The notes beneath the pieces are model-generated. The model saw nothing but the letters and a program-made list of their open reading frames with translations. It was not told the DNA's origin and ran no database searches. A DNA stretch of 64,000 nucleotides, from positions 103,334-167,333 of the forward strand of contig NZ_WHJG01000012.1 of the NCBI RefSeq assembly GCF_011682175.1. The letters are read 5' to 3'. This document shows positions 1,952 to 11,682 of this stretch, piece after piece. Origin of the DNA: Massilia frigida. Its GTDB lineage: Bacteria > Pseudomonadota > Gammaproteobacteria > Burkholderiales > Burkholderiaceae_D. A program made the position numbers and the translations under genes. Each line of letters opens with the position of its first letter. Position 1 is the first letter of the stretch.

Positions 1952-4120
1952 GTGGAGCGCGATTTGCAGGTGGATGAGCAAGAACTGGGTCATTATCGGC
2001 TGAAGCGTCTGTTGGGTGAGGGTGGCTTCGGGCAGGTATACGAGGCCTGGGATTCCAAGCTCCAGCGTACCATTGCCATCAAGCGACTCAAACCGCAATT
2101 GCTGTCGTCACGGCCGGACAACCTGCTCGACGAAGCGCGTCTGGCTGCGTCGCTGCGCCATCCGGGCTTCGTGCGCATCTTTTCGATCGAGGGCGATTGC
2201 GCCCAGCAATCGATCGTGATGGAATTCGTCGATGGCCGCACCCTGCGCGAAGCGGGCAAGAGCGGTCCGATGCCCGAGCACGCCGTGCTCGATATTGTAG
2301 CCCAGGTGGCCGACGCCATGCGCGAAGCCCACGCAGCCCGCTTGATCCACGGCGACATCAAGCCGGCCAACCTGATGCTGGAGGCGTCCGGCAAGGTGCG
2401 CATCATGGACTTCGGCCTGGCGCGCAAGATCGATCCGCAAGCGACCGAATCGGTGGTGTTCGACCAGACCGAGGGCACCATCGCCTACCTGGCGCCGGAA
2501 TTGATGATGGGCTCCACGCTCAGCGCGCAAAGCGATGTGTATGCGCTCGGCGTGGTGATGTACGAACTGCTCACCGGCACCCGCCCGTTTTCGCACCTGA
2601 GCGGGCTGGCGCTGGCCGCTGCCCATATCCAGTCATCCTCGGGTCTGTGGCCGTTCCCGGCCGATACCAGCCCCGGCGTGATCGCGCTGGTGCGCGCCAT
2701 GACGGCGCGCCAGGTCGAGGACCGGCTCGCCTCGATGCAAGCGGTCCAGGAGGCGGCGTTGCGCCTGCGCCATCCAGCGCCGCCAGCGGCCGCGCCAGCC
2801 GCGCCCGCGCGCGCTGCGGGCTGGCTGGGCCGGAACAAAGTGCGCATCGCCATGCTCGTGGCCGGGCTCGCGCTCGCGGCCGGGCTGGGCGGCGTGCTGC
2901 GCGGCGGCAACCTGAGCGACTGGTACCAGCGTAACGATCCCTTCTTTTCCGAAGCGACGGCGATGCAGACCGGCCTGACGGCGCTGCGGACCTTCGAGCG
3001 GCCCGAGAGCCTGGACCTGGCGGTGCGCAGCTTTTCCGCCATTCTCGCGCACGATCCGGAGCATGCCGCCGCCGCCGCCGGCTTGTCGTTCGCCTACAGC
3101 TTCAAGCAAACCAGCGAACACCGGGACGAGGCCTGGCTCAAGCGCGCCGATGCCAGCGCCCAGCTGGCCATCAAGCTCAATCCCCAGCTGGCGCTCGGCT
3201 ACGCGGCCCAGTCGACCGTGCGCTCCGGCCAGCGCAGGCTGCCGGAAGCGCTGGCGCTGGCCGAGCATGCCTTGCGCCTGGATCCGCTCAACTGGTTCGG
3301 CCTGATTACCAAGAGCAACTCCCTGACGCGCTTGCGCCGCTATGGCGAGGCCGAGCGCACCTTGCGCGATGCGATCAAGATCCATCCGACCGACCACGTG
3401 CTGCAAGATTTGCTGGGCACCCTGTTTTTCGAGCAGGGCTTGCTCAAGGACGCCGAGCAAGCATTCCGGCACAGCATCAAGCTGCAACCGGACACGGTCA
3501 GTTCCTACGCCAACCTGAGCCTGGCCTTGCAGCGCCAGAACCGCATGGATGAAAGCCTGCAAGTGTTGCAGCAAGGCTTGCAGGTGCGCCCGACGGGCGG
3601 TCTCTACACCAACCTGGGCAATGCCTTGTTCAACCGTGGCGATTACGTCGGCGCGGCCGAGGCCTTCCAGCGCGCCGTCGGGCCCCCGTTCACGACCAAT
3701 TCCGATTACCTGCGCTGGGCCAACCTGGGCGATACCCTGCGCTGGATTCCGGGGCGCGAGGAGGATTCGCGCAAGGCGTACCGGCAAGCGCTCGGGATGC
3801 TCAAGCCGCTGCTGCTGGAGGCCCCCGGCGAAGCCACCTTGCAGTCGCGCATGGGGCTGTACGGAGCACGCCTGGGCGAGCGCGCGGCGGCGCTCGAACA
3901 CACCCGGCGCGCCGTGGACATGCGGCCGGACGACCCCAACCTGCGTTTTCGCGCGCTCATGGCGTATGAGCTGCTCGGCGAGCGCGACCTTGCCCTGGCG
4001 GAGCTGGCGGCGGCGCGCCAGCGCGGTTATCCCGTCCATCTCATCAACGCCGAGCCCGACCTGATCGCGCTGCGGCGCGACCCGCGGTACTTTGATTCCA
4101 CCACAGAAAGTGATAAATGA
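1952..4120 (+). CDS. Membrane Ser/Thr protein kinase with TPR repeats
   Basis: A 722-residue eukaryotic-type (PknB/Hanks) kinase. The glycine loop GEGGFGQV is at residues 22-29, the ATP lysine is in IAIKRL (about 44), the catalytic loop reads HGDIKPAN (about 133-140) and DFG is at 153-155. The usual HRD is HGD here, so this is a non-RD kinase, which normally needs no activation-loop phosphorylation. A transmembrane helix follows at about residues 296-318 (MLVAGLALAAGLGG), then about 400 residues of TPR-type helical repeats that would lie in the periplasm. GTG is the start: the upstream frame closes at once, and a good promoter sits just ahead. The stop overlaps the next ATG (ATGA), so the two genes are coupled. 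The substrate is unknown; the co-translated neighbour is the obvious candidate partner. Confidence 0.9.
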   Translation: MERDLQVDEQELGHYRLKRLLGEGGFGQVYEAWDSKLQRTIAIKRLKPQLLSSRPDNLLDEARLAASLRHPGFVRIFSIEGDCAQQSIVMEFVDGRTLREAGKSGPMPEHAVLDIVAQVADAMREAHAARLIHGDIKPANLMLEASGKVRIMDFGLARKIDPQATESVVFDQTEGTIAYLAPELMMGSTLSAQSDVYALGVVMYELLTGTRPFSHLSGLALAAAHIQSSSGLWPFPADTSPGVIALVRAMTARQVEDRLASMQAVQEAALRLRHPAPPAAAPAAPARAAGWLGRNKVRIAMLVAGLALAAGLGGVLRGGNLSDWYQRNDPFFSEATAMQTGLTALRTFERPESLDLAVRSFSAILAHDPEHAAAAAGLSFAYSFKQTSEHRDEAWLKRADASAQLAIKLNPQLALGYAAQSTVRSGQRRLPEALALAEHALRLDPLNWFGLITKSNSLTRLRRYGEAERTLRDAIKIHPTDHVLQDLLGTLFFEQGLLKDAEQAFRHSIKLQPDTVSSYANLSLALQRQNRMDESLQVLQQGLQVRPTGGLYTNLGNALFNRGDYVGAAEAFQRAVGPPFTTNSDYLRWANLGDTLRWIPGREEDSRKAYRQALGMLKPLLLEAPGEATLQSRMGLYGARLGERAAALEHTRRAVDMRPDDPNLRFRALMAYELLGERDLALAELAAARQRGYPVHLINAEPDLIALRRDPRYFDSTTESDK

Positions 4121-4740
4121 AGAAACCGACATCGATGCTCCTGGAAGCCAATTTCGACATTAACCAGATCGGCGAAACGCTGGAATGGAAGTTCAGCCGC
4201 AAGGATGGGGACGGCAATCCCGTCACCGGGCGCTACGCCGGCGCCATCTACTTCACCATGGGCGAACTGGTGCGCATCAAGGTGCGCGCGGGTGGCTACG
4301 AGCAGATCGAGTCGTTCAAGGTGCTCGATTGCTCCCTGATCACGCGCCCGCAAATCGTCTGCATCGCACCCGGCCAGCTGGCCGTGTATGCCAGTGCCTC
4401 GCCGTTCGACGGCGTGGCCGGCGCCTGCGTGGCGATTGCTCCGGACCAATTCGGCCCGGGCCATGCCCATGCGAGCGAGGAAGAGGGGCGCAAATACCAC
4501 ACGATCTCGCGCAAATGGGACAACTTCCTCACCGTCGGCAAAGACACCGGCCGCTGGGAAGTCTCGTTCGTGCTGACCGTCGAAATCACGCGCTGCTCCG
4601 GCAAGCAGGAAACGCGCGTGTTCGCCTTCGATCCTGAAGGCGTGGTCGGCGCCGGCGTCACCCCGCCCGACATGGCCGAAGGCGGCGACGGCATCGCCTG
4701 CATGCCCGAAGGCGAAGTCATCGGCAGCTTGCCGGCCTGA
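4117..4740 (+). CDS. Unknown protein coupled to the kinase; weakly AidA/PixA-like
   Basis: A 207-residue soluble protein with no signal peptide or membrane helix. The C-terminal stretch WEVSFVLTVEI ... RVFAFDPE resembles the end of the AidA/PixA inclusion-body protein family, but the similarity is slight and I would not assign the family from it. The ATG overlaps the kinase stop by four bases, which implies translational coupling and a shared role, for example as a kinase substrate or adaptor. The gene converges on the sigma-54 regulator that ends at 4751. Confidence 0.75.
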   Translation: MKKPTSMLLEANFDINQIGETLEWKFSRKDGDGNPVTGRYAGAIYFTMGELVRIKVRAGGYEQIESFKVLDCSLITRPQIVCIAPGQLAVYASASPFDGVAGACVAIAPDQFGPGHAHASEEEGRKYHTISRKWDNFLTVGKDTGRWEVSFVLTVEITRCSGKQETRVFAFDPEGVVGAGVTPPDMAEGGDGIACMPEGEVIGSLPA

Positions 4741-4750
4741 TCCGGCTAAG

Positions 4751-6304
4751 CTAGCTGGTGCCGGCGTCCAGGCCGAGCACCCGCAAATGGCGGCGCAGCG
4801 CCTCGCTCGGCGTCTTCAGGCGCGAGGCGCAGCGCGCCAGGTCGCCGCCATCGGCGCGCAGGGCGGCGTCGAGTTCATCGCGCGGGATCAGGGCCGCCGG
4901 GCGGATTGCCGGATGCGCTTCGATCAGCTTGTACAGCGAGGGCCGCGACAAGCCCAGCTGCTGGGCCGCGCCGCTGATCTGCCAGCCATGTTCTTCGAGC
5001 GCGCCGAGCAGGTCGTCGTTGCTGATCTCGGCCAGCTTGCGGCGCGGGGCGCTCTCTTGCGGCGTTTTCAGGCTGGCGCTGCGCGCCTGTTCGTACGGGG
5101 CCGCGAGGCTGGCGCTGGCCGAGCGCAGCGCCGCCGGCGCGTGCACATACTGCGCCAGCAGCGGCCGCTCGCCCGCCTGCAGGGCCATTACCATGCGCCT
5201 TGCCACGTTGGACAACTGGCGGATATTGCCCGGCCAATCGTAATTGCACATCTCGCTCACCAGCGCGGGCGGGAAGGCGGCCAGTTCCTCGGCTTTCAAG
5301 CCGCAGCCTTTTAACATGTGCACCAGCAGCACCCCGATATCTTCGCGCCGCTCGCGCAAGGTCGGCACCCGGATCACGAACGCTTCCATGCGGCGCAGCA
5401 AAGGCTGGTTGAACCCGCGCGCGTCCAGGTCCTGGTCGGTGGCGGCGATCAGGCGCGCCGTGGTGCGCGCATCCTGGCTCGCGCCCAGCGGCCGGTAGCA
5501 ACCCGTTTCCAGCACCCGCAGCAGCATCGGCTGCACCGACGCCGGGGTGTCGCCCAGCTCGTCGAGGAACAGGGTGCCGCCATCGGCTTCGGCGAACAAG
5601 CCCTGGCGCGGCGCCTGCGCGCCAGTGTAGGCGCCCTTGGCCGCGCCGAACAGGTCGGCCGCGGCCAGCGACTCGCTCAGGGTCGCCATGTTGACCGCCA
5701 CCAGCGGATTGGCGCTGCGCTTGCTGGCCTGGTGGATCGCGCGCGCCGCCACATCCTTGCCGGTGCCGGTTTCGCCCAGCAACAGCACGGCCAGGTCGGT
5801 GCCCGCCACCTGGCGGATCAGCTCGCGCGTGGCGATGGCGCCGCTGCTCACGCCCAGCAGGCCGGGAAACAGGTTAGGGCGGGGAAAACTCGTCATCCAG
5901 TGCAGGCACAGCAGCACATGGCCGCCCAGGCCGAGCACCACGCCGGCGGCCACCTCGTCGCGGGAAAAGCTGCGCGTGCCGCTCAGCAGCGTGCCATTGA
6001 CTTCGAGCGCCATGCGGCTGTCCGGCGCGGCCAGTTCGACGCCATCGCTGGCGGTGCGGTAGACCATCAGCGGCGCGCGCGCGATGGCGCGGTGGCCCAG
6101 CGCGATGCCATCCTGGCCGGGACGGAAGAACAGTGGCGCGTAGCGGCACACCTCGATGTAACCTTCCTCGGCCGGGCCGATGAACTGCTCGCCGATGCGC
6201 TCGGTTTCCGGGTGCCACAGGATCGTCAGGCCCAGCAAGGCACTGGTGATGCCATTTTTCTGCGAGAAAAGCTGCGTCGTCAGCGTGTTGTCAACATCAT
6301 TCAC
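4751..6304 (-). CDS. Sigma-54-dependent transcriptional activator (AAA+/Fis)
   Basis: A bacterial enhancer-binding protein of about 517 residues. After a ~150-residue N-terminal region that looks FHA-like, the AAA+ domain carries Walker A GETGTGKD (about 177-184), the sigma-54 contact loop GAYTGA (about 224-229, with Tyr for the usual Phe), and Walker B in [11 protein letters not shown] (about 242-252). A Fis-type helix-turn-helix closes the protein ([20 protein letters not shown]). The open frame extends further upstream to 6457, but GTG at 6304 is chosen because GGAG lies seven bases ahead and the upstream part reads as regulatory DNA full of TGTAAA repeats. A divergent gene set has a perfect -24/-12 promoter, so it is the likely target. 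The FHA-like region suggests control by phosphoprotein binding rather than a receiver domain. Confidence 0.92.
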
Positions 6305-6367
6305 CGTTCGGCTCCATGGCACAGCGTTTAGTAATTGCCAATTATAGAGGAAAGCTGTCAATTGTTG

Positions 6368-6395
6368 ACATGTAAAGAACCTCTGCTTTACACGT
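6368..6395. promoter_or_regulatory. Imperfect inverted repeat, candidate activator-binding site 1
   Basis: ACATGTAAAG (6368-6377) and CTTTACACGT (6386-6395) are inverted with an 8-base spacer and one mismatch. A further TTTACAC half-site follows at about 6399. It lies between the sigma-54 activator and the -24/-12 promoter, where an upstream activating sequence belongs. Confidence 0.5.
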
Positions 6396-6454
6396 GTTTT
6401 ACACGTTTCCTGTCGCATCCCCTCCGGGCGCTTCCGTGTCATCTTGCTATCAGA

Positions 6455-6480
6455 CATGTAAATAGATTCTTATTTACATG
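6455..6480. promoter_or_regulatory. Perfect inverted repeat, candidate activator-binding site 2
   Basis: CATGTAAATA (6455-6464) and TATTTACATG (6471-6480) form a perfect 10-base inverted repeat with a 6-base spacer. It shares the ATGTAAA core with the repeat at 6368, and another TGTAAA half-site occurs at 6501. It lies about 65-90 bases upstream of the -24 element, a usual distance for an enhancer-binding protein. Confidence 0.6.
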
Positions 6481-6543
6481 CCCGTTGACATGTTTTTCCT
6501 TGTAAATCAAGGAATTGGCATGCCATTTAGGCACTTATCAGTG

Positions 6544-6559
6544 TGGCACGGGAGTTGCT
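6544..6559 (+). promoter_or_regulatory. Sigma-54 (-24/-12) promoter
   Basis: TGGCACGGGAGTTGCT matches the TGGCAC-N5-TTGC consensus exactly, with GG and GC separated by the required distance. Transcription would begin near 6570, giving a leader of about 50 bases before the ATG at 6622. Confidence 0.9.
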
Positions 6560-6621
6560 ATGTACTTAAACGTGGCCTTGTCGGGCTGCAAGTGGATAAT
6601 CCGCCGGAGAGAGTTGGAAAC

Positions 6622-7446
6622 ATGGGTATCGTGATCGAGAGTTATGCATTTGTTGGCGTGGCAACCCGGGCAACCGGGCCGACGGCCCAGGTATGGCTGC
6701 CGCCCGGCTTTACGCTGACCGGCGGCGGCGCCTACGACATGGGCCGCGGCACGTCGAACACGCTGACCGCCTGCTACCCGACCCGCAACCACGCAGGCGT
6801 CTTCAACGGCTGGACTGCCGCCGGCCGCGATTTCGGCCTGGCCGACCCGGTGCCGCTGGCGGTGTACGCGGTCGGCATCCGCATCACCCGCGACGGCGTG
6901 CCGGTCAAGGTCGAGCAGCAAGTGTTTTCCGCCACCAGTGCGCTGGTGTCCGAGCCCGGCGTGAGCGTCAAGCTCGGCGCCGGCTGGATCGGCACCGGCG
7001 GCGGTGCCCAGGATAACTACGCCACCCCGGTGAACGGCAATATGCTCACCGCCAGCTACCCGCTGATCGGGCCCGACGGCAAGATTTGCGGCTGGAGCGC
7101 GGCCGGGCGCGACCACGACGCGGCCGACCAGGCCCGCGTGACCGCTTTTGTGATCGGCATCCGCACCGGGCCGGACGTGGCGCTCGATGCCCATATCGTC
7201 TCGAACACCAGCCTCCTGACCGGCTACCCGAGCGCGCTGGTGGCGGCCCCGCACGGCAATGCCGTGGTGGCCGGCGGCGGCGCGCTGGTGGGCGAGAATG
7301 GGCGCGGCACCATGCTGAGCGCCTCGTGCCCCATCATCAGCAGCCAGGACGGCCGCCTGACCGGGTGGTTCGCCGCCCGCAAGGTGCAAAAATCAGCCCC
7401 GCCGAGCGGCATTACCGCGTATGGAGTCATGCTTGAAGCTGCGTGA
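6622..7446 (+). CDS. Protein of three tandem GGGA/GW-type repeats, unknown
   Basis: A 274-residue protein built from three similar units of about 80 residues. Each contains a glycine-rich turn (TLTGGGAYD / IGTGGGAQD / VVAGGGALV), a serine/threonine-cysteine or alanine strand (LTACYPT / LTASYPL / LSASCPI), a tryptophan turn (FNGWTAAGRD / ICGWSAAGRD / LTGWFAARK) and a closing strand (AVGIRI / VIGIRT / GVMLEA). This suggests a three-fold beta structure, perhaps trefoil- or propeller-like. There is no signal peptide. ATG at 6622 is chosen over upstream starts because GGAGAGAG ends eight bases before it and it lies downstream of the sigma-54 promoter. The next gene begins inside its last 26 bases. 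I do not recognise the family. Confidence 0.85.
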   Translation: MGIVIESYAFVGVATRATGPTAQVWLPPGFTLTGGGAYDMGRGTSNTLTACYPTRNHAGVFNGWTAAGRDFGLADPVPLAVYAVGIRITRDGVPVKVEQQVFSATSALVSEPGVSVKLGAGWIGTGGGAQDNYATPVNGNMLTASYPLIGPDGKICGWSAAGRDHDAADQARVTAFVIGIRTGPDVALDAHIVSNTSLLTGYPSALVAAPHGNAVVAGGGALVGENGRGTMLSASCPIISSQDGRLTGWFAARKVQKSAPPSGITAYGVMLEAA

Positions 7447-8659
7447 CTGGATCCTGATCGGCCTGGCGCTGCTGGCGATGGCGGTGGACTTGCCGGCACG
7501 CGCCAGCGCGGTTGGCGCCAGCGGCGGCGTGCTGGCCAGCGGCGTCCACTCCGACCGCCTGGCATGGCAGCACTTCGCCGGCATCGTGGCGCCGGCCGGG
7601 CGCGGCCGGGTCGAATTCGAAACCTGGGCCAGCGACGAGAACATCTACACCGAGACCCCGGCCTGGCCGGGCGAGGACGCCCCGCGCCGCCTGCGCAGCA
7701 GCGTGCTGCAGCGCGTGCTGGCGCCGCATGGCAGCGCAGACGCTCCCAGCGGCGACTGCGGCGCGGTGGCCGATGCCGTGTCGGGCAATTTCCCGCTCCA
7801 GGCGCCGCAGCCGGGCCAGGCGCCGTGCTTTGCCGAAGAAGTCAGGCGCAACCTCGCCACCTACCGCTACATCGTGCAAAACCAGCTCAATACCCAGGCC
7901 GGGCTGGCCGCCGCCTACCAGAAGGCGCAGGGCGGCTGGCGCGTGGCGCTGCCGGAAGACGCGGTCCAGGTCAAGGCCGACTGGGTGCCGGTCGAGACCC
8001 TGGTCGCCTGGCTGGGACGCAACGGCGTGCGCATCAACGCCGCGCAGGTGCGGGCCCAGTTCCACACCACGCTGGCGCAGGGCACCAGCTTCGCGCTGGT
8101 GGCCATGCACATCAGTTCCAAGGATGCGCCGAACTGGGTCTGGGCCAGCTTCGAGCACCGCCTCAATCCGGGCCGCTGCGACACCATGGGCTGCAACGAC
8201 AGCTACGGCGCGGCGCGGCGCAGGATCGCCCCGCTGGCCGGCGCGCAGAATGGCCAATACGCCGACTGCGCCAAGACGGCGGCCCTGAAAAAACTGTTCG
8301 AGGTCAAGCGCGTGGCGCCGGCGTGGAACAACTACTGCCTCAAGGCGTCCGAAATCGCGTTTGTCGCGCGTGACGGCGCGCCGCTCATGCACGGCAATTC
8401 GTTCACCGAGCGGGTCGCGGCCGGGATTCCGATCAAGCGTTCCTCGTGCATTTCCTGCCACGCCAGCGCCGGCTTCGGCCGCGACGGCAGAGCGTACATC
8501 AAGCAACTCACTTCGCACCCCATGGGCACGGTAAAACTGCCGGCCGACATCGTCGCCAACGATTTCATCTGGGGCATCCTGACAATCAACGCCGTGCCAG
8601 TGGAGCAGGCGAAGATCCCGCATAACCTCGATCGAACGAGGATTACAGCCAGACGATAG
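7421..8659 (+). CDS. Exported protein with a single CxxCH heme-type motif
   Basis: A 412-residue protein with an N-terminal signal peptide (hydrophobic LIGLALLAMAV, then cleavage near ARASA). The body has several cysteines, and near residue 345 a CISCH motif in SSCISCHASAG, the covalent heme c attachment pattern. A following HPMG could supply the axial methionine. This suggests a periplasmic c-type cytochrome-like protein, although the remaining chain does not resemble a standard cytochrome domain. The ATG overlaps the preceding gene by 26 bases, so both belong to the sigma-54 transcript. A strong hairpin terminator follows. The function is unknown; an electron-transfer role is inferred only from the motif. 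Confidence 0.8.
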   Translation: MESCLKLRDWILIGLALLAMAVDLPARASAVGASGGVLASGVHSDRLAWQHFAGIVAPAGRGRVEFETWASDENIYTETPAWPGEDAPRRLRSSVLQRVLAPHGSADAPSGDCGAVADAVSGNFPLQAPQPGQAPCFAEEVRRNLATYRYIVQNQLNTQAGLAAAYQKAQGGWRVALPEDAVQVKADWVPVETLVAWLGRNGVRINAAQVRAQFHTTLAQGTSFALVAMHISSKDAPNWVWASFEHRLNPGRCDTMGCNDSYGAARRRIAPLAGAQNGQYADCAKTAALKKLFEVKRVAPAWNNYCLKASEIAFVARDGAPLMHGNSFTERVAAGIPIKRSSCISCHASAGFGRDGRAYIKQLTSHPMGTVKLPADIVANDFIWGILTINAVPVEQAKIPHNLDRTRITARR

Positions 8660-8757: not shown

Positions 8758-9774
8758 TCATTTCTCCGGTTCGATGCATGCTGAACTCTGCTTGGACACG
8801 TACACGGGATTTTCCTGCCTGCGGAACTCGCAGTAGTAACGGTATTCGAATTGCCGGAAACCTTTATCCCTGCTCTTTTCGTCGTTGCGGATGAAGGTCA
8901 GCACAGCGCCGGGATAGTCCTTTTTAAGCCGTTCCAGATAGTCATTACAGGCGGCCGTGCGATTGAAACCGCCTCCGCGCCACTCGCCCCAATTGCTTTT
9001 GTGTTCATCGATGGCATAGCGTTCGATCCCGTGGCTGGGATGCTGGCAGACGGGGTAGGCGGCGCAGGCGGCGGATTTCTTCGATCCCACCCCGGCGGCG
9101 CTCAACAGATGCTGCGCGCGGGCGATCGGAATCACGTAGGTGATCAATTGCCCACGGTCGTTCAATGCCACCGCCATCCCGACCACCGTGCCATATTGCC
9201 CGAACACCGGGCTGCCGCTATTGCCCGGACTAAATGCCAGATTGGTTTGCCACCACGGCTTGATCTGACCTTCCACGATGGTGTTTTGCGCCGTTTTCTG
9301 TCCGCCGGGTACCAGCGCCAGATCCGCCGAACCGGCAAAGCCGAGTCCGCTCAATGCGGCGCCCACGGCAATATCGCCCGGCGCGGCGATCGTCACGGCC
9401 GGCCACGGCGCATTCGCCGGCGCCGCCGGCAGCTTCAGCAGCGCCAGGTCGGATTCGTGATCGCGCGAGACAATGCTCGCTTCGACGGGCGGGTTGAGCA
9501 GGGAGCCGGGGCGCACGGTCACCATCGCTGAATTGATCGTCAGGTCTTTCAGTTGCGGGCTGACGACATGGGCGTTGGTCAGCACATGACCAGCCGGCGA
9601 GACAATGAATCCGGTGCCATAGTCAACGCCGGTGCCGTCGGGCGTGCTGTACTCGTACTTGATATGCACGGTCGCGCCCTGGTTGGCAGTGAACAGGCAC
9701 TGCATGTCCTGGGCCGCCGCGCCGGGCGACAGGAAAGCGGACACGGTCCAGCAAAAGCGAATCCGCATGCTCAT
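8758..9774 (-). CDS. Exported trypsin-like serine protease (S1C/DegP-type fold)
   Basis: A 338-residue protein with an N-terminal signal peptide that seems to end at GAAAQ. The chymotrypsin-fold triad is visible: His in LTNAHVVS, Asp in HESDLALLKL and Ser in SPGNSGSPVFG. There is no PDZ domain; instead the C-terminal ~100 residues form a cysteine-containing extension (CAAYPVC, CNDYLERL, YYCEFRRQ). It probably acts in the periplasm or outside the cell. The longer open frame running further upstream is not coding: the correct ATG at 9774 overlaps the stop of the upstream gene (ATGA). The tight coupling with an NlpC/P60 protein suggests a joint role at the cell wall. Confidence 0.85.
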   Translation of the reverse strand: MSMRIRFCWTVSAFLSPGAAAQDMQCLFTANQGATVHIKYEYSTPDGTGVDYGTGFIVSPAGHVLTNAHVVSPQLKDLTINSAMVTVRPGSLLNPPVEASIVSRDHESDLALLKLPAAPANAPWPAVTIAAPGDIAVGAALSGLGFAGSADLALVPGGQKTAQNTIVEGQIKPWWQTNLAFSPGNSGSPVFGQYGTVVGMAVALNDRGQLITYVIPIARAQHLLSAAGVGSKKSAACAAYPVCQHPSHGIERYAIDEHKSNWGEWRGGGFNRTAACNDYLERLKKDYPGAVLTFIRNDEKSRDKGFRQFEYRYYCEFRRQENPVYVSKQSSACIEPEK

Positions 9775-11435
9775 TTGCGCTCCCCTTCCTTGCTCAGGGT
9801 TATACGCCGCAGTGGCTTGTATCCGGCCTGCTGCAGCTCGCCCTGCGTGTACGACCTGCGGCACACGCCCCCGCACGATTTGTTCGCCGCCGATTCGATG
9901 ACGACCACCACCGGTCCCGCTGGCCCGTTGTGAACCGACTCGACCAGGCGCACATGGCTGCGCGGTTTGTTGACGATGTCCGCCGGAGACAGTTCGTGCC
10001 AGAGCACCGGCCTGCTCACGGCCCGGTCGGGAAGGCTGCCGGTGGTGAAGTAGCGCCCGGTTTGCCATGCGTAGGAAACAAAACCCGAGCAATCCATCCC
10101 CGTACTGTTGGCATAAACGCAGTTGACGTTGCGGCAGGTGCAGTCGTCCCCGGCGAGCCGTCCCGCGTCGAGGTGCTTGGAGAAATTGGCCAGCGCACTC
10201 ATGTAGCCGCCCCAGCGGTAAGGCACGCCGCTGACATCCTTGCCGAGCAAGCCGTCGAGGCGGAGCGGGCGACGCCATATGTTTGACGGTGGAGCGCACC
10301 GGTTGGCTGCGGCGGCGTGCTCGAATGCGCTCGCCTTCAGGCGCCACACCAGTTCCAGCGGCGCGCGGGCGCGTTGCAGGATCTGGCTGGCGCTGATGGA
10401 TGTCATGGCGATATTTGTGGCGCCGGAAACGCCATTGAGGCGTTCGAGTGCGCGCAAGGTGTCGTCGTGTTCCGCGATGAGCGTCGCAGCGGCAAGATGG
10501 GGTCCGAGTGCCAGCGGCTCGGCTTTGCCCAGCGGCGAAAACTGGATGGTATCGAGCGCGATGGTGTTGTCCTGGAAAACCAGGCTGACGACCGTTCCGT
10601 CGGCGCGGCGCGCGTATGGACGGCGGGTATCGCAGGCGAAGGCAGCAGGGCGGACATAGGCTTCGGCGTGCGCGGCGCCGGCGGCATCGACCTTGAGCAG
10701 GCGCACGTAGGCAGCCTCGTGAGGCAGGCGCCGGCTCTCGTGCAGCGCCACCAGCGCACCTTCGCCTTCGTTGACCCACAGGACCCGGGCGTCGACGACG
10801 CGCATGCGCGACTTGAGCGTCAGTGTTGAAAGCGGGCCGGCCACTTGAGCCGATGCGATGACGATGGTCGCCGGATCGGTACGCGGGGCCGTCGCGGCAT
10901 ACGACGCGGCGGCGGCCAGGTTCGCAAGCACCGGCGTCCCTGTCTGCCGTGCCGAAAGCGGCACATTGACCCGCTTGCCATTGAGGTCGTCGAGGGCGAA
11001 GCCGTCCGCCAGCGCGATCAGGCGCGGCACGCCCGCCTCGGGATCGTGGCCGGTGCGGGTGCGCGCCAGCACGTCGCCCTTCGCGCTCACCATCGCGACC
11101 TCCCCAAGCGCTCCGACAACCAGGAAGCCGCGTGAAGTGGCAATGACATCGACCGGTTCGAGGAGGTCGGCCGGTAGCGCGATGTCGTGCCTTCCTGCGG
11201 CTGCCAGCACGACGATCTTCCCGTTGACCTTGTCGAGCAGCGCCGTCGCATCGTCACCGGCGGCGACCATGGCGGCCGGTCCCTGGCAGTCCTGGTTGGG
11301 ATGCATCTCCAGGCCGATCTGGCCAGGACCTGCCCCGACTTCCAATGCCATGCCGCCAGGCGCTTGCGCATACCCGTACAGCGAAACGGCCATCAGGCAG
11401 GCCGGCAGGACGAAGAAACGGGAAAGATTGCGCAC
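9771..11435 (-). CDS. Exported NlpC/P60-type protein with a large N-terminal region
   Basis: A 554-residue protein. GTG at 11435 is the start: AGGAGG lies four bases upstream, and the chain begins with a clear signal peptide (RNLSRFFVLPACLMAVSLYG, cleaved near YAQA). Residues ~30-370 look like a beta-propeller-type region (repeated strands such as KIVVLAA and GFLVVGALGEVAMV). The C-terminal ~170 residues carry the NlpC/P60 pattern: Cys in GMDCSGFVSYAW and His in RSHVRLVE. Such enzymes are cysteine peptidases or amidases acting on peptidoglycan peptides. The cysteine-rich insert CTCRNVNC precedes the active site. The stop overlaps the start of the downstream protease gene. The substrate is unknown. 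Confidence 0.82.
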   Translation of the reverse strand: MRNLSRFFVLPACLMAVSLYGYAQAPGGMALEVGAGPGQIGLEMHPNQDCQGPAAMVAAGDDATALLDKVNGKIVVLAAAGRHDIALPADLLEPVDVIATSRGFLVVGALGEVAMVSAKGDVLARTRTGHDPEAGVPRLIALADGFALDDLNGKRVNVPLSARQTGTPVLANLAAAASYAATAPRTDPATIVIASAQVAGPLSTLTLKSRMRVVDARVLWVNEGEGALVALHESRRLPHEAAYVRLLKVDAAGAAHAEAYVRPAAFACDTRRPYARRADGTVVSLVFQDNTIALDTIQFSPLGKAEPLALGPHLAAATLIAEHDDTLRALERLNGVSGATNIAMTSISASQILQRARAPLELVWRLKASAFEHAAAANRCAPPSNIWRRPLRLDGLLGKDVSGVPYRWGGYMSALANFSKHLDAGRLAGDDCTCRNVNCVYANSTGMDCSGFVSYAWQTGRYFTTGSLPDRAVSRPVLWHELSPADIVNKPRSHVRLVESVHNGPAGPVVVVIESAANKSCGGVCRRSYTQGELQQAGYKPLRRITLSKEGERK

Positions 11436-11682
11436 GTTACCTCCTGGAAATAATCGATGCCCGGGCCGGGCAGAACGCCAGATTAACAGCAAGGACGTGC
11501 TGATAACGTCGCTAAATGTTGACGTAGATCAGATCGGCTGACTTGAAAATGTACTAGGTACGCATCAAAAACGAAGGGAATTTGTTGCTCAGCTTCAGGC
11601 GACCATGCGCCTGTCGCTATACTTGAGCCTCAATTCGCCCGCCGTCCCTTGGCCAAGCTCTGTTATCAGGAATCGATTCGCC

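Follow-up and report, generated by a model that had tools for sequence, protein, structure and literature searches.

The window, a stretch of 64,000 nucleotides from Massilia frigida (assembly GCF_011682175.1, contig NZ_WHJG01000012.1, positions 103,334-167,333 of the forward strand), contains a Ser/Thr kinase with a TPR domain, a small protein of 207 residues (O207), an FHA-type sigma-54 activator (ACT), a promoter with a cluster of inverted repeats, a triple-repeat protein (TRI) and a single-CxxCH protein (CXX), whose positions are given in Table 1. The initial annotation of this DNA had recognised the activator, promoter, repeats, TRI units and CXX motif, all of which are present, but overlooked the kinase and the 207-aa reading frame (1952-4740) as well as the FHA-like N-terminus of ACT. 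No RNA element reached the Rfam gathering threshold across the window.

Table 1. Features of the kinase-activator-TRI region, in window coordinates
Feature	Position	Strand	Basis or remark
Ser/Thr kinase with TPR domain, 722 aa	1952..4120	+	Pkinase E 8e-51, TPR families, motifs
O207, 207-aa protein	4117..4740	+	start overlaps kinase stop
ACT, FHA-type sigma-54 activator	4751..6304	-	GTG start 6304; Sigma54_activat and HTH_8
GAYTGA sigma-54 contact loop of ACT, residue 224	5618..5635	-	sequence
Predicted FHA domain of ACT, about residues 22-140	5885..6241	-	structure model
N-terminal tail motif D-V-D-N-T-L-T of ACT, Thr7 candidate phosphosite	6278..6298	-	tail alignment
Predicted operator dyad 1, TGTAAA-N10-TTTACA, centre about -188	6371..6392	+	pattern search
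Extra TGTAAA half-site	6398..6403	-	pattern search
Predicted operator dyad 2, TGTAAA-N10-TTTACA, centre about -102, 86 bp from dyad 1	6457..6478	+	pattern search
Extra TGTAAA half-site	6501..6506	+	pattern search
Sigma-54-type -24/-12 promoter TGGCACGGGAGTTGCT	6544..6559	+	exact TGGCACN5TTGCW match
TRI, triple-repeat protein, 274 aa	6622..7446	+	units about 6622-6897, 6898-7173, 7174-7443
CXX, single-CxxCH protein, export-type N-terminus	7421..8659	+	overlaps TRI stop; accessory

ACT was first described as a Fis/AAA+ activator with a GAYTGA variant of the contact loop, and this agrees with its matches to an AAA+ sigma-54 interaction domain (PF00158, E 4.1e-49) and a Fis-type helix-turn-helix (PF02954, E 2.7e-8); the genome has one rpoN match (PF04552, E 2.4e-64). 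The GTG is preferred as the start because the residues upstream of V1 vary between orthologues, and an upstream ATG at 6457 is less likely. The promoter divergent from ACT, also part of the initial description, is the only exact TGGCACN5TTGCW match in the window, and since matches with up to two mismatches number 32 against 40 expected, only the exact one stands out. Transcription is predicted to start at about 6569, and TGGCA[CT]-N5-TTGC is kept in the intergenic regions of all ten loci that carry TRI.

Comparison of loci with and without an intact GA[FY]TGA loop supports a link between the activator and such promoters. Strict sigma-54 sites lie within 2 kb upstream of ACT at 16/26 loci with the loop and at 0/13 without it, against a background of 0.045 per 2 kb; because the loci share kinship, the Fisher p of 2.8e-4 for this comparison overstates it. 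No locus was left out of the count, and L053, a draft genome with frameshifts, was retained. Three of the ten intact-loop loci without a strict site (L050, L053, L063) have a near-consensus site and were scored as site-less all the same, and two of the 16 strict sites are far from ACT and in the opposite orientation (L100, L147). Two further sites fall outside the region upstream of ACT and were therefore not scored: the one at L135 adjoins a dyad on the side of the kinase, and the one at L146 lies within the kinase gene itself. The loop-less activators without sigma-54 sites can be regarded as natural knock-outs that already support the link between activator and promoter.

The perfect and imperfect inverted repeats and accompanying TGTAAA half-sites noted initially are likewise real, with perfect 10-bp arms at 6455-6464/6471-6480, 90% arms at 6368-6377/6386-6395, and 6 of the 14 TGTAAA in the window (5.7 expected) falling within 6371-6506. 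A search of the 7.79 Mb genome for TGTAAA-N(4-18)-TTTACA gives three sites, namely the two at this locus, each with N10, and a single N6 site at another place; a backwards control pattern is similarly frequent (four for N4-18, one for N8-14), so that the clustering and conservation are unusual and the genome count is not. Allowing one mismatch, 9/10 TRI loci retain an N10 dyad, even where TRI is only about 57-68% identical. Two paralogous kinase/ACT cassettes with other target genes have, respectively, an N10 dyad with one mismatch (L063) and half-sites at N13 together with a sigma-54 site (L054). In other genera, 26 additional loci totalling 398,023 bases contain eight exact dyads; the seven loci that have them all belong to the 14 with an FHA activator. 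The corresponding counts for 59 permuted palindromes of equal composition average 0.20 and reach 6 at most. Dyads are present at 13/26 intact-loop and 4/13 loop-less loci, and absent from the seven g40 loci examined.

The TyrR box is TGTAAA-N6-TTTACA, with half-sites identical to these, and the one site elsewhere in the genome has this N6 spacing. That the dyads are operators of some other regulator, for example a TyrR-like one, with ACT working elsewhere, nevertheless seems to us very improbable: the N10 sites are confined to this locus in the genome, dyads of N9-12 occur in 7/14 FHA-activator loci of other genera but in 0/12 O207 loci, and the two dyads, centred some 102 and 188 bp ahead of the predicted start, are at distances typical of enhancer sites.

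The close ACT orthologue and TRI are found in the same 10 of 17 genomes of the genus, and the kinase, O207, ACT and TRI stand together at all ten TRI loci, ACT being in frameshifted pieces in one of them (G197). The local sigma-54 module of the initial annotation, with its activator beside the target in other genomes, thus stands within the genus, where both the adjacency to TRI and the -24/-12 element are seen at 10/10 loci, but the description of the module as self-contained is not supported, the kinase and the 207-aa gene accompanying it at every one of them. O207 lies directly 3' of the kinase at these ten and at 12/12 loci examined outside the genus; it has no Pfam, NCBIfam or PHROG match, and its best PDB sequence match (E 0.3) is not significant. 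The kinase has HGDIKPAN, DFG and APE motifs and, by hydropathy, a hydrophobic segment (residues 297-315, about 2840-2896) that separates its kinase and TPR parts. The HGD motif is found in 35/38 kinase-domain matches; the three exceptions are partial matches or come from a second, distant kinase. We consider it probable that everything from 1952 to 7446, from the kinase through the operator and promoter to TRI, is one circuit, and likely that kinase, small partner and activator form a predicted switch that turns on TRI in a group of Massilia.

What would join the kinase to the activator is the N-terminal part of ACT, which has an FHA fold in the predicted structure. The domain is below Pfam detection, and in a PDB profile search of the N-terminus ten heat-shock chains (E about 0.06) precede the FHA chain 3gqs_A (E 0.12), none of them significant, so the FHA assignment rests on the model. 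The phosphothreonine pocket of FHA domains consists of Arg, Ser and Asn-Gly, and by eye the candidate pocket residues in 11 sequences are R54, R76 and G104, all invariant, and N103, kept in at least 90%; the position that we take to be the pocket Ser, again assigned by eye, is Ala in this ACT clade. Ahead of the domain lies a tail modelled with low confidence (pLDDT 51-63), in which a Thr with L, V or I as the next residue is present at 25/25 and 14/14 loci, or 39/39, when the printed tails are read by eye (strict regular expressions find 24/25 and 7/14).

The Ala at the presumed Ser position is one of several observations consistent with a circuit in which ACT drives TRI without taking its signal from the kinase: the two would simply travel together, and ACT would be controlled through its own level or through a ligand that its N-terminal domain binds. 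Kinase and O207 lack an activator within 16 kb at 6/6 g6 loci examined (12 g6 genomes have O207), which means that the kinase has other roles too, and the activator paralogues L056-L062 have an equal FHA part and the tail Thr with no match to the window kinase within 15-16 kb. We nonetheless regard this arrangement as rather unlikely, given that the tail Thr is kept in all 39 tails read and that the kinase adjoins the activator at all ten TRI loci and, convergent and at most 0.8 kb away, at 12/14 loci of other FHA activators in other genera.

With the kinase as input, a signal, perhaps detected through O207 or on the membrane face where the TPR part lies, would activate the kinase, which would then phosphorylate Thr7 in the tail of ACT. 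The FHA domain of the same or a neighbouring ACT could bind this phosphothreonine and so alter oligomerisation, and the active ring, seated on the upstream dyads, would open the sigma-54 promoter by looping. The result would be synthesis of TRI and then, in some species, of the accessory CxxCH protein; the dyad nearest the ACT gene may also restrain expression of ACT itself. Such a module would couple Ser/Thr phosphorylation to sigma-54 transcription in a compact way, and its predicted operator, TGTAAA-N9..13-TTTACA, can be read from the sequence.

FHA-domain sigma-54 enhancer-binding proteins of Myxococcus xanthus were reportedly described by Jelsbak, Givskov and Kaiser in 2005. These resemble ACT, with its predicted FHA domain, in combining FHA, AAA+ with GA[FY]TGA and a Fis-type helix-turn-helix, but ACT differs from them, as far as their description goes, in having a TPR kinase and O207 as partners, its conserved N-terminal Thr, an operator motif found in several genera, its TRI target and an FHA domain below Pfam detection. 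In GarA and OdhI a phosphorylated Thr ahead of the FHA domain is the switch, a type of Thr switch said to have been treated by Nott et al. in 2009. GarA/OdhI and PknG of Actinobacteria likewise pair an FHA protein with a TPR-bearing Ser/Thr kinase (excerpts of PMC8546545), and in ACT the conserved Thr precedes the predicted FHA domain, within a flexible tail; the two systems, likened by the FHA fold alone, differ in outcome, which is enzyme inhibition there and predicted sigma-54 transcription here.

The target itself, as first described, consists of three similar units of about 80 residues, with pairwise identities of 31/85, 23/64 and 28/80, each scoring above all 500 shuffles. The initial annotation had proposed a search of structure and profile databases, and this yields a predicted fold but no PDB match by sequence: TRI is predicted to adopt a three-unit, pseudo-threefold all-beta fold like that of the V-domain, the tail domain of human PCSK9, whereas three PDB sequence searches give no match, to PCSK9 or any other chain, a negative result still compatible with a sequence relationship. 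PHROG gives no match for TRI, and in Pfam searches for TRI over 42 relatives six families appear (E from 0.0024, one to eight members each), none at the cut-off in the TRI of the window. In excerpts of PMC6294395 and PMC5943054 the PCSK9 V-domain and the apicomplexan perforin-like APC-beta domain are double-layered beta-prisms, and in those of PMC6294395 APC-beta has two disulfides per subdomain joining inner and outer sheets. TRI differs from both in lacking detectable PDB sequence similarity, in standing alone without a signal peptide and in having only three Cys. These are too few for such disulfides, for which reason we describe TRI as predicted to fold like these domains and do not file it as a family member. 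Among 120 of 232 relatives listed, a TRI-related domain is C-terminal in some bacterial MACPF proteins, and in excerpts of PMC2954219 the bacterial Plu-MACPF has a C-terminal beta-prism possibly touching the membrane; TRI, likened to it by description, has no MACPF part, and the genome has no MACPF match. TRI would be a stand-alone binding domain akin to the C-terminal part of some bacterial MACPF proteins. Our tentative suggestion, less probable than not, is that it belongs to a bacterial branch of the V-domain/APC-beta fold, formerly the target-binding part of bacterial perforin-like proteins and now freed to stand alone under a phosphothreonine switch in a sigma-54 activator.

By eye TRI has no obvious signal peptide, and it has no strong hydrophobic segment; the former leaves an extracellular role unexplained. 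Together with the small number of Cys relative to APC-beta as excerpted in PMC6294395, this makes it a real possibility, if short of a probable one, that TRI is not a surface or membrane binder but a cytoplasmic protein such as a scaffold or a partner of O207. Against this, by eye P0060, P0213 and P0225 are relatives that look exported, and MACPF fusions occur among the others, though several relatives are leaderless like TRI. A profile of TRI run on 398 genomes of the phylum matches only this genome, with at most six candidates scored per genome, so that a weak relative may be missed. Our literature search (titles and abstract openings) found no report of a bacterial PCSK9-like domain. If the prediction holds, bacteria too have a PCSK9-type fold, in part joined to perforin-type proteins, and the origin and original binding role of this medically important domain would become testable in harmless bacterial species.

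CXX, initially predicted to be an exported protein of single-heme type and a joint target with TRI, does have the single CxxCH (CISCH at residue 343), a putative haem motif, and the hydrophobic, export-type N-terminus of c-type cytochromes; no Pfam or NCBIfam cytochrome family model matches it. As a core target it was rejected, being full-length at 4/10 TRI loci, a 64-codon relic at 3/10 and absent from the locus at 3/10. The idea that TRI and CXX work as a pair under the control of ACT draws on their overlap here, on the four full-length copies and on relatives of TRI at 62% (P0045) and of CXX at 68% (P0078) that possibly share one contig of 41,287 bases; it is improbable, since in three species CXX has a large internal deletion where TRI is 93% identical, three more lack it at the locus, and relatives number 202 for CXX against 69 for TRI. 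Among 120 of those 202, the CxxCH is single in every one and a hydrophobic N-terminal stretch is present in 110.

The account of the locus that we favour, and hold to be somewhat more probable than its failure as a whole circuit, is a kinase/FHA/sigma-54 cassette controlling a protein of predicted PCSK9 V-domain-like fold (TRI, the triple-repeat protein); of its steps the sigma-54 link has the strongest support, that of the kinase is one we infer, and least can be said about what TRI does. The initial annotation had described a self-contained sigma-54 module with TRI and a single-CxxCH protein (CXX) as joint targets. Its sequence claims on the activator, promoter, repeats, TRI units and CXX motif all hold on recheck, while the modular interpretation is supported in part only, and a Ser/Thr kinase with a TPR part and the adjoining 207-residue protein (O207) had been overlooked as members of the gene block. 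The TRI units share identities of 31/85, 23/64 and 28/80 residues, every alignment score exceeding all 500 shuffles.

Genes of the locus, in window coordinates
Feature	Position	Strand	Remarks
Kinase	1952-4120	+	Ser/Thr kinase with TPR part
O207	4117-4740	+	207 residues
ACT (activator)	6304 to 4751	minus	sigma-54 AAA+ domain, GAYTGA loop, Fis-type HTH; FHA-type by model prediction
TRI	6622-7446		three similar units
CXX	7421-8659	+	overlaps TRI stop; one CISCH

Within the 64-kb window only TGGCACGGGAGTTGCT, the promoter, matches the consensus exactly; it leaves a leader of 53 nt between the predicted transcription start and TRI. Upstream of that start are two TGTAAA-N10-TTTACA dyads, the predicted operators, centred at about -102 and -188 and thus 86 bp from each other. 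In the 7.79 Mb genome the dyad at N4 to N18 occurs 3 times and a backwards control pattern is similarly rare (4), so the argument rests on position and conservation, not on the genome count. The only occurrence outside the window (L157, G000:C184:43772-43789) has an N6 spacer and lies, by eye, near a KfrA-like ORF.

The order kinase, O207, ACT, divergent promoter region, TRI recurs at all 10 TRI loci, and the activator-repeat-promoter-TRI block is conserved: ACT adjoins TRI and TGGCA[CT]-N5-TTGC is retained in 10/10, and in 9/10 there is an N10 dyad deviating in no more than one base, the tenth (L050) having a degenerate N9 site only. Beyond the promoter element little else aligns, by eye, in the three distant orthologous regions. 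TRI is present in 8/195 sampled family genomes, all 8 from the window's own genus, in 10/17 genomes of that genus (among them Massilia mucilaginosa, M. atriviolacea, M. rubra, M. aquatica and one Massilia draft genome) and in 1/398 genomes sampled across the phylum, the window's own. In the 7 genus genomes lacking TRI the best ACT matches are general activators only, with E no better than 2.6e-51. One TRI relative, P0064, is annotated as from the amoeba Pelomyxa schiedti.

Some FHA activators of the family have lost the GA[FY]TGA loop, which amounts to a natural experiment on the link to sigma-54. Among 39 loci the loop is intact in 26 and missing in 13, and a strict sigma-54 site lies at most 2 kb upstream of ACT in 16/26 loop-intact versus 0/13 loop-less loci (Fisher p 2.8e-4, relatedness of loci ignored), the background being 13 matches in 575,331 bases, or 0.045 per 2 kb. 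Two of the 16 sites are distant from ACT and oppositely oriented (L100 at -1209, L147 at -1924); the strict site is absent from 10 of the 26 intact-loop loci, 3 of which have near-consensus ones. Dyads occur at 13/26 intact-loop and 4/13 loop-less loci.

Seven FHA-type activator paralogues without the loop (L056-L062; genomes G148, G181, G192, G159, G000:C173, G138, G111) are neighbours of genes that, by eye, form a potassium-uptake-like operon with its sensor/regulator; lacking the loop, these paralogues are most unlikely to activate sigma-54 promoters and may have taken on another role. FHA activators with a degraded loop (GAHAGE, GAYPGA, GALPGV and GAYAGA, for example) are found in two other genera, at L134, L137, L140, L141 and L143 (g18) and at L139 (g4), and none of these six loci has a strict sigma-54 site. 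Four of the 5 g18 loci have a TGTAAA dyad in front of a gene for an unknown protein of 268-301 aa that is co-directional.

The dyad also occurs at FHA-activator loci outside the genus. A scan of 26 loci of other genera (398,023 bases) yields 8 exact N8-14 dyads within 7 loci, all belonging to the 14 FHA-activator loci and none to the 12 O207 loci; for 59 palindromes permuted from the same bases the mean was 0.20 and the highest count 6. The window's plan is mirrored with wider spacing at L142, from another genus, where a Trp-halogenase/FAD-type protein (5490-6896) is divergent from the FHA activator; ACT is flanked there by two N10 dyads, and the sigma-54 site, TGGCACGTGAATTGCT, is divergent. 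The dyad lies 1.1-1.7 kb upstream of ACT in four other loci, 2.0 kb upstream in L147, and on the kinase side in L135. Two paralogous kinase/ACT cassettes stand opposite unrelated genes, L054 with an N13 dyad and a sigma-54 site, and L063 with an N10 dyad carrying one mismatch and a site that, as read from the sequence, deviates at its first base.

CXX did not hold up as a joint target. It is full-length at 4 of the 10 TRI loci and missing from 3, one of those genomes having a 55% relative elsewhere; M. mucilaginosa, M. rubra and M. aquatica have a 64-codon relic in which roughly 28 residues from the start and 11 from the end survive. CXX is therefore a passenger of the module. The stretch 8758-11492, between CXX and the GNAT gene, encodes a trypsin-like protein and another that also looks exported; they were matched at only one (L051) of the nine other TRI loci, a pattern reflecting either recent insertion or repeated loss.

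O207 directly follows the kinase at the 10 TRI loci and at 12/12 fetched loci from two other genera, and occurs in 25/195 family genomes spanning 3/44 genera. In one of these genera (g6, 12 genomes with O207) the activator is absent within 16 kb at 6 fetched loci, and in the other (g40) it is present at 5/6. Kinase and O207 thus look like the wider unit, with the activator as an add-on and the target gene swapped between loci: TRI here, the halogenase-like gene at L142, and radical-SAM and haem-oxygenase-like genes at L055. A radical-SAM protein is divergent from the FHA activator at both L055 and L097, joined at L055 by the Haem_oxygenas_2-type protein, and the two loci are possibly peptide-modifying clusters. 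The O207 homologues of L049 and L053 end in a twice-repeated PEGEVGxGVSPP motif, and a DPE-x-x-VG motif likewise closes the small protein encoded in L054, a paralogous cassette.
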